Of a stretch of 64,000 nt of DNA, positions 33,339 to 49,827 are shown in pieces (position 1 is the first letter of the stretch; every line of letters starts with the position of its first letter). Below the pieces are notes generated by a model that saw nothing but the letters and a program-made list of their open reading frames with translations, had not been told where the DNA came from and did no database searches. The position numbers were made by a program, and so were the translations under genes. The DNA comes from Candidatus Binatia bacterium. GTDB taxonomy: Bacteria > Vulcanimicrobiota > Vulcanimicrobiia > Vulcanimicrobiales > Vulcanimicrobiaceae. Location of the stretch: contig DATKHY010000007.1 in assembly GCA_035544215.1 (NCBI GenBank), forward strand, positions 372,001-436,000. The letters are read 5' to 3'.

Positions 33339-33495
33339 TGGGATGGCCGGGAGTCGAACCCAAGCTCGGGGATTCCAGTCGCTGCCGACCGTTACCGAAA
33401 AGTGTTATTCCGTGAGGCTTTTCCGCCCACTGGTTCCCGAACCATCCCTGCCGATTCTGACCGCTTCCGACCCGTCCGTGACAAAACGTGACAAT
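33339..33495 (-). repeat. att-type scar, copy D
   Basis: 33339-33360 equals the tRNA-Leu 3' end, and the next base also matches the tRNA. The block is diverged from A-C: it ends CCGTCCGTGACAAAACGTGA (33473-33492) instead of CCGTTAGAAAATG. The variant matches the truncated scar at 12376-12418, so two integrase-specificity subtypes may be represented. Confidence 0.72.
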
Positions 33496-34822: not shown

Positions 34823-35104
34823 CCAACCTAAAATGCGCTATAGTCCTAACGCCGCATGCTCCCAATAACTTGCTTCCAGCATCGAGTTATGCAGCGCTGA
34901 ACCGAGCAGTACCATGCTCGCGTCTCCACTTGGTTTGAACACCGCGTCCCTAGCAAAATATCAACCTAAGCCCGACAGTCGCATTGATGCTCATCGAGCG
35001 GACAAAACGAGACCTAGTGCGGCGGAAACTCCTATAAAATAAAGCAAATACTTTTTGGGATGGCCGGGAGTCGAACCCGGACGCCCTTTCGGGCTGCAGA
35101 TTTT

Positions 35105-35356
35105 CGCACCACTATGGCTTTCGCCACCGCGCTCTCGCGTTTGTGGTCCGGACTGTGCCTTGACCGTATGAGCTTGCGCTCACGTAGGCCGCGCCCGTCC
35201 AGTCTCTACACCTTCTCCACTACGGAGCTTGGCTCGGCGTCGTCACGTCGCCCTTCGCCCTGAGCTTGTCGAAGGGTCAGGACGACAGAGAGTTCGCCGA
35301 ATTTGAGCGCATCCCGCGGGTGGTTTCCCGATCCCGCGGCTCAACCGTTTCCCGTC
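35105..35356 (-). ncRNA. Self-splicing group I intron in tRNA-Leu(UAA)
   Basis: The 252-nt intron ends in G, as group I introns do. P1 can form between exon CTT plus intron GAC and GTTGAG, giving the U-G pair at the 5' splice site. P2 is CCGCGGG/CCCGCGG. P3 pairs GCGCTC with GGGCGC. The P4-P6 core reads CTCAAATTCGGCGAAC and GACGCCGAGCCAAGC. P7 is GACTG/CAGTC, with AAGGTGTAGAGACTGGACGG resembling the cyanobacterial tRNA-Leu intron core. No homing-endonuclease frame is present. Subclass (probably IC3) is inferred from the similarity. Confidence 0.92.
35239..35286. repeat. Palindromic dispersed repeat, member 2, inside the intron
   Basis: GTCGTC at 35239 pairs with GACGAC at 35281, and CCCTTCGCCCTGAGCTTGTC is the family core. 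It occupies the loop between the P5/P6 strands, a region that tolerates size variation, so splicing need not be harmed. Related elements are at 17317, 49438 and 49875. Confidence 0.65.
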
Positions 35357-35402
35357 AAGTCTGCTGTGTCTGCCTATTCCACCACCATCCCAAGCAGGTC
35401 GG

Positions 35403-35645
35403 CTACTGCTGGTAGTGTTCAACGACCTCTTCCTTGCGCATCTCTGCAACGCCGGGGTCTTGCCCGGCGTCGCGCCGGGCGCGGCGTTGGCGTAATAGGT
35501 CCCAGTACTGGTCGAGCCTGACAGTGATCTCGTCGAGGCGCTTGAGATCCTCAGACGTGAGCTTGCCGTTCTCGCCGTGCTCGAGCAGCCGGTGCTCTTC
35601 GGCAACGAGCTCCTCGATGTGCTCGCGTATCTGCGTGTCGTTCAT
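35403..35645 (-). CDS. DUF2630 protein
   Basis: The 80-residue helical protein (MNDTQIREHIEELVAEEHRL ... LDQYWDLLRQRRARRDAG) matches DUF2630 in length and in the VRLDQYWDLLRQRRA segment. The function of the family is unknown. Its ATG overlaps the stop of the Ppx/GppA gene (TAATG), so the two are coupled. Its 3' end lies 12 nt from the tRNA-Leu 5' end. Confidence 0.82.
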   Translation of the reverse strand: MNDTQIREHIEELVAEEHRLLEHGENGKLTSEDLKRLDEITVRLDQYWDLLRQRRARRDAGQDPGVAEMRKEEVVEHYQQ

Positions 35646-36613
35646 TAGTTCATCCCCTTCGCGACTCTCGAACCTTCAGGGCCACGTTGGGGTTGCCGCG
35701 TCGCGTCCCACTGCTGTAGCAAGAAGCCGAGCAGCAAATCGGAGGTCGTCGCGAGCGCCTCGTCGCGCCCCAGCGTCTCGAGGGCGGCATCCAGCACGAC
35801 GATCCCCGCCGGCAGAATGTCGGCACGCTGTGGTTTCATGCCCACCACCTTCTTGCGCTCATCGAGGCTGATGTTGCACAAACGCTCAATCGTGCGTTGC
35901 AGATCCGCGCGCGTCAGCCGGTACGATCCGATCGGCGCCGCTCGTCCGCGCACGATCGCAGCCGCCGTCGTCGCGCTGCCGCCGACGAGCGCCACGCGCT
36001 CCGCGGGCGCGCACTCCGCGAGCGGTCGGAGGGCCTCGCGCGCAAGGTCTGCTGCACGGGACAGCTCCCCGGCCGGTACCGGGCCTTCACGCCCCGCGAG
36101 CTTAGGCACGGAGTCCGTCAGGCGTACGGCCCCGACCTCGCATGAGATCACCCTCTCGGGGGTAACCGAATCGCCAACCGCGTACTCGGTGCTGCCGCCT
36201 CCGACGTCGATAACGCCGACGCGATCGCCGCGCCGGCCATCGAACGCCGTCAGCGCGCCGCGATACGAGGCCTCCGCTTCCTCTTCCCCGGTCAGGACGC
36301 GCAGCGGAACGCCGAGCACATCGCGCACTCGCTCCATGAACTCTTCACCATTGTCTGCTCGGCGCAGCGCGCTCGTCGCGGTCGCGAACATGCGGACGTA
36401 ATGCCCGCGCATCGCTCGCGCGAGCTGCGCGACGGCATCGATCGTGCGCTGCATCGGCTCGTCGCCGAGCCGGCCCCGCTCGCCCATTCCCTCGCCGATG
36501 CGCGTTCCGATCGAACGGGCGAACTCAACGCGAGGCTTATCGAGCTCGACGTCCGCCAGCAGCGCGCGGGTCGAGTTCGTGCCAATCGATACGATCGCGT
36601 AGCGCCTGCTCAG
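35645..36613 (-). CDS. Ppx/GppA-family phosphatase, probably with a CTG start
   Basis: The ASKHA-fold protein has RRYAIVSIGTNSTRALLAD at the extreme N-terminus and the second phosphate loop VIDVGGGSTEY near residue 135. Members hydrolyse polyphosphate or pppGpp. The first ATG (36487) would delete the essential first loop. In the correct frame the only upstream option after the TAA is CTG at 36613, eight nucleotides after AGAGG. With it the length is 322 residues, normal for the family. It follows the S1-like gene by 12 nt. Confidence 0.85.
   Translation of the reverse strand: MSRRYAIVSIGTNSTRALLADVELDKPRVEFARSIGTRIGEGMGERGRLGDEPMQRTIDAVAQLARAMRGHYVRMFATATSALRRADNGEEFMERVRDVLGVPLRVLTGEEEAEASYRGALTAFDGRRGDRVGVIDVGGGSTEYAVGDSVTPERVISCEVGAVRLTDSVPKLAGREGPVPAGELSRAADLAREALRPLAECAPAERVALVGGSATTAAAIVRGRAAPIGSYRLTRADLQRTIERLCNISLDERKKVVGMKPQRADILPAGIVVLDAALETLGRDEALATTSDLLLGFLLQQWDATRQPQRGPEGSRVAKGMN

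Positions 36614-49750: not shown

Positions 49751-49827
<77 letters not shown>

Follow-up and report, generated by a model that had tools for sequence, protein, structure and literature searches.

The window, by which we mean the whole stretch of 64,000 nucleotides that was analysed, belongs to a genome of the phylum Eremiobacterota (WPS-2). On its minus strand, at 35056-35391, lies a class II tRNA-Leu(UAA) gene with an interruption of 252 nt at 35105-35356. The gene starts with GGGATGG and runs up to GCAGACTT, where the 252 nt set in; it resumes with AAAATCTGC and ends with CATCCCA. The 5' exon (35357-35391, minus strand), which is conserved across 30 relatives, closes with GACUU and thereby with C32, U33 and U34. 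The 3' exon (35056-35104, minus strand), which is also supported by the relatives' alignment, supplies A35, A36, A37 and A38, the class II variable arm GCCCGAAAGGGC and the T arm. When introns are allowed, ARAGORN calls a tRNA-Leu(taa) at c[35055,35392] with an intron of 252 nt and a junction of GACTT with AAAAT; the same mode also called, within the window, one tRNA-Val with an intron that seems to be spurious, so that the tRNA-Leu call is weak alone. In default mode the program misses the split tRNA-Leu, and the window yields just a tRNA-Met at 49751. Since the seven-base anticodon loop reads CUUAAAA, the break must be placed between U34 and A35. Coordinates, size and insertion site had been given correctly by an earlier sequence-only reading, which did not state the strand; its view that a class II tRNA-Leu(UAA) emerges once the 252 nt are removed is shared by ARAGORN with introns and by the 30 relatives.

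Upstream, the gene is followed by a DUF2630 protein of 80 aa (35403-35645, minus strand), a flank that is conserved in intron-bearing and intronless relatives, and then by a Ppx/GppA phosphatase (35645-36487, minus strand). On the other side, the 3' end of the tRNA-Leu gene is found twice: a perfect direct repeat of 23 bp covers 33339-33361 and 35056-35078, 1,717 bp apart. It resembles a pair of attachment sites flanking a small element.

The interruption has the build of a group I intron, as judged from ARAGORN with introns, from two core models and from covariation. All its parts lie on the minus strand. The internal guide GAG (35340-35342), recognised by inspection and conserved in position among the relatives, pairs with the CUU of the 5' exon to form P1: U34 makes a wobble pair with G at the 5' splice site, U33 pairs with A and C32 with G, and this pairing is kept in the relatives. 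P2 is a hairpin with a GGGAAACC loop (35314-35339). Then follow the 5' strands of P3 (UGCGCUC, 35305-35311) and P4 (UUCGGCG, 35295-35301), the 3' strand of P4 (CGCCGAG, 35233-35239), the P6 hairpin (35211-35232), the 5' strand of P7 (GACUG, 35200-35204), the 3' strand of P3 (GGGCGCG, 35190-35196), the P8 hairpin (35162-35190) and the 3' strand of P7 (CAGUC, 35151-35155). The last pair of P7 is G-C in Eremiobacterota and C-G in Cyanobacteria. The P9 domain (35105-35149) has a GAAA loop and closes at 35105 with a G, the terminal (omega) G and last base of the intron. A reading frame for a homing endonuclease was not found within the 252 nt.

In the alignment, the intron exceeds those of the closest relatives by about 30 nt, because a REP-like palindrome, CCCTTCGACAAGCTCAGGG, is inserted in the P5 loop (35258-35276, minus strand). 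This element is absent from most sister introns. It has 16 genomic copies at up to two mismatches; the reversed control has none. Similar palindromes sit in other peripheral loops of related introns, in P6 in one genome (G016) and in P9 in another (G058). In Nostoc, the P6b loops of trnL introns bear repeats (PMC4476775), with which the palindromes may be compared, if by analogy only.

The group I core was scrutinised with a model, R1, built from 33 introns, 17 of relatives and 16 of cyanobacteria, the window's own intron being left out. R1 matches 35147-35314 with 127.9 bits (E 2.9e-36), the next-best match in the window reaching 10.6 bits. A second model, R2, made from cyanobacterial tRNA-Leu introns only, matches the same place with 53 bits (E 2.3e-14). 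RNAalifold recovers P3, P4, P5, P6 and P8 unaided. With the P7 pseudoknot included, 97.0% of the cells in P3-P8 are paired versus 83.6% in shuffles, and the proportion falls to 29-42% if the structure is slid by 1-3 columns as a control; cells with double changes number 167 versus 64.6 in shuffles. The differences that set the two phyla, Eremiobacterota and Cyanobacteria, apart are paired ones: G-C against U-A in P3, G-C against A-U and C-G against G-C in P4, and G-C against C-G in P7. P5 and P8 also covary between Eremiobacterota and Cyanobacteria. What defines a group I intron, the catalytic core P3-P8 with the P7 pseudoknot, is thus present. P1 with its U-G pair, the core, P7 and the terminal G, all of which had been proposed from the letters, are borne out by core models, paired changes and inspection of the sequence.

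The Rfam model RF00028 (Intron_gpI), however, gave no group I match here, neither at its gathering threshold nor at E up to 10. The same model skips a sister intron (L033), yet credits a cyanobacterial one (L045) with 91 bits; its silence therefore reflects low sensitivity of the model and not a missing core. A match to a group I covariance model, on which the sequence-only reading had made its case depend, is accordingly provided by R1 and R2 but formally lacking for RF00028. The gene is a tRNA-Leu(UAA) and the insertion site is U34/A35, as in the known class of such introns, and the observation is a real tRNA-Leu(UAA) group I intron. Cyanobacterial tRNA introns are classed as IC3, and homology to them suggests an IC3-like subgroup here. 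A scan of viral contigs for the core motif found none.

The intron is not a peculiarity of one genome. A pattern scan of named genomes gave matches in Cyanobacteria, in 'Candidatus Eremiobacterota' and in two Proteobacteria records. Among about 149 genomes of the phylum, 50 have the Leu intron, in 40 the tRNA-Leu(UAA) is uninterrupted, and none has both; in genomes with neither form the assembly may simply break off at this gene. Two contigs with the intron indeed stop at the 3' end of the tRNA (G003:C27 and G005:C6). The 50 genomes, some with the intron on contigs above 1 Mb, led us to reject contamination or misassembly of a single MAG. Within the phylum, f1 and f3, two families of one class, were the only ones to yield it. 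Both states are met within several genera, among them g1 (8 and 2), g9, g19, g26, g34 and g4, and a member of the host's own family (G025) has the uninterrupted gene. A literature search of open-licence papers retrieved no earlier report of a tRNA intron in Eremiobacterota. This is a known kind of intron, but one that is new to the phylum as far as that literature goes.

Other group I introns are also around. The 23S rRNA gene of the same genome harbours a second one (G000:C3:383998-384272; L001 1501-1775), which RF00028 scores with 70.9 bits. Elsewhere in Eremiobacterota, tRNA-fMet genes contain group I introns (L207, L208, L209 and L211, in G108, G101, G102 and G051, respectively). An ORF inside the G108 intron matches PF11645 (E 3e-50) and also the structure 2OST (E 4e-59), which we take to be I-Ssp6803I. 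Three further group I introns of the phylum interrupt apparent tRNA-Tyr and tRNA-His genes (L206 in G113, L212 in G110 and L213 in G111).

On a host tree of 64 genomes, which is a single-gene tree (rpoB) made by a quick method, the presence and absence of the intron require at least 19 state changes versus 21.8 in shuffles, and 69 of 500 shuffles are as low. In the same genera, intron-bearing and intronless genes have upstream flanks that are collinear as far as the tRNA; downstream of it, conservation among the relatives is mostly lacking. Distances between introns correlate with rpoB distances between hosts (Mantel rho 0.47 in f1 and 0.36 overall; none of 2000 permutations reached these values). 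Old presence with many precise losses fits the shared flanks and the distance correlation together. Close relatives have gained or lost the intron repeatedly at the same spot; the simplest reading is that of an old resident, precisely removed from the one locus on many occasions. Because the number of changes on the rpoB tree is near random, repeated gain by transfer is still a tenable alternative. A further reservation is that, in the intron trees, f3 introns are placed among those of f1, though the AU test does not reject f1 as a single clade (p 0.53). As the sequence-only reading had expected, the case bears on vertical inheritance versus transfer, namely inside Eremiobacterota; for the deep link to Cyanobacteria, the AU test rejects no alternative.

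The trnL intron is the textbook example of an ancient intron and has been used to argue for vertical inheritance from cyanobacteria to plastids. The sequence-only reading had taken the U34/A35 site as a cyanobacterial hallmark. This did not hold up. When R1 was also run on 386 genomes of Cyanobacteriota and 398 of Pseudomonadota, group I introns turned up in 104 and 41 of them, respectively, and those that were read lie in tRNA genes. About 15 Pseudomonadota loci (at least 15 of the 30 read) have tRNA-Leu(UAA) introns at U34/A35 (L387, L392, L400-L405, L407, L408, L410-L416). A gamma-proteobacterial case of a tRNA-Leu(UAA) intron was reportedly described by Vepritskiy et al. in 2002. In some cyanobacteria the site is used by a second intron type unlike the classical one (L264 and L355, in genomes G345 and G449). 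A contig of a 'Tatlockia' MAG (L054, JACCVJ010000252.1) shows a cyanobacterial-type tRNA-Leu with intron; it is probably a contaminant. With same-site introns in Pseudomonadota and long-standing ones in Eremiobacterota, identity of the site alone cannot prove vertical inheritance.

The deep branches have to be read with care: the introns are short, the alignment offers about 220 columns, and long stem branches meet. Introns of Eremiobacterota come out as a single clade (93/95; 100/100 with Pseudomonadota included), and the classical cyanobacterial Leu introns as a separate one (100/98; 100/99 with Pseudomonadota included). In the alignment and tree with cyanobacterial introns that had been proposed, the Eremiobacterota introns do not fall inside the classical cyanobacterial clade. 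In the tree that includes Pseudomonadota, they stand beside the tRNA-Arg introns of that phylum (100/99) and away from cyanobacterial Leu introns. That placement would fit a separate colonisation of U34/A35 in Eremiobacterota by tRNA introns, of Leu or Arg type, whose lineage also occurs in Pseudomonadota. Also, the P9.0-P9 segment AGTCCGGACCACAAAC resembles the pseudomonadotan AGTCCAGACCACGAAC and not the classical cyanobacterial AGTCCAATTCTCAAA, although this shared segment may be ancestral. With the few columns, the long branches and every tested alternative surviving the AU test (with Pseudomonadota included, p is 0.46 for Eremiobacterota with Pseudomonadota Leu introns and 0.12 for all Leu introns together), a separate colonisation is a serious possibility that stops short of being probable. 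It concerns the origin only; the splicing mechanism would be the same as in our preferred explanation. An independent, non-cyanobacterial colonisation, combined with endonuclease-less coming and going within genera at a fixed locus and in a single-copy, presumably essential tRNA, is a scenario that we put forward tentatively.

It is unlikely that Cyanobacteria and Eremiobacterota inherited one tRNA-Leu(UAA) intron vertically from a shared ancestor. A joint clade of Eremiobacterota and cyanobacterial Leu introns does survive the AU test (p 0.51; 0.27 with Pseudomonadota included), but the link to tRNA-Arg introns and the restriction to the class of f1 and f3 speak against it. A recent transfer of the classical intron from the cyanobacteria sampled could explain the identical gene, site and GAG guide and the homologous core. 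Yet the two sets of introns are well supported clades, each on a long stem and lying outside the other, and these clades and the fixed paired differences in P3, P4 and P7 make such a transfer very improbable.

Whatever its origin, the intron presumably has to be spliced. In the genome of 3.23 Mb, which is 97% complete, a second, uninterrupted tRNA-Leu(UAA) was not found. The other long tRNAs are those for Leu with UAG, CAA, GAG and CAG, four for Ser and one for Tyr; a backup for the interrupted gene is not among them. By the established decoding rules, UUA is read by tRNA-Leu(UAA) only. The codon is rare but used: UUA makes up 43 of the 15,555 codons in the window's long ORFs, although part of these ORFs may be spurious. 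Because the genome has this sole tRNA-Leu(UAA) and UUA is in use, splicing would presumably be essential to the cell. The fold is documented by covariation; for the chemistry we rely on the intron family. There, the CUU at the end of the 5' exon would pair with the GAG guide to form P1 with its U-G wobble, exogenous guanosine bound in P7 would cleave after U34, and U34 would attack after the terminal G and join A35 to give a normal class II tRNA-Leu. That we see a decayed insertion which no longer splices is hardly credible, despite the REP-like element in P5: the core is the same as that conserved in 30 relatives, a backup gene was not found, and the element occupies a peripheral loop, a kind of place where other relatives have inserts too. 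Very probably, then, we are dealing with a small tRNA-type (IC3-like) group I intron without endonuclease in the single tRNA-Leu(UAA) gene; most simply, it would be an old resident of the class with precise losses at the same locus, perhaps along with some transfer.

The class, with about 90 genomes, roughly half of them with the intron and mixed genera at an orthologous locus, makes rates and routes of loss and gain testable. There is also a practical side: as neither ARAGORN in default mode nor Rfam detects the gene, such genomes can seem to be devoid of a tRNA they need.

With the cyanobacterial and plastid trnL intron, the one described here has in common the gene, the U34/A35 site, the GAG guide, the P2-P9 architecture, GAAA loops and the lack of a homing endonuclease. 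It differs by the pair identities in P3, P4 and P7, the P9.0 segment and a clade of its own, and also by its host phylum and by escaping RF00028. The tRNA-Leu(UAA) introns of Pseudomonadota share the site and a similar P7-P9 segment, but they have another P2 region (GAGTG...AGAAC) and P8 and belong to another clade. The tRNA-Arg(CCU) and tRNA-Ile(CAU) introns of proteobacteria such as Agrobacterium and Azoarcus are group IC3 introns of the anticodon loop; they reside in other tRNAs and use the guide GGG, and the Arg type neighbours the Eremiobacterota clade. The tRNA-fMet intron of Synechocystis, finally, is a tRNA-type group I intron of a type also present in Eremiobacterota, but it resides in a different tRNA and carries the PD-(D/E)XK homing endonuclease I-Ssp6803I.
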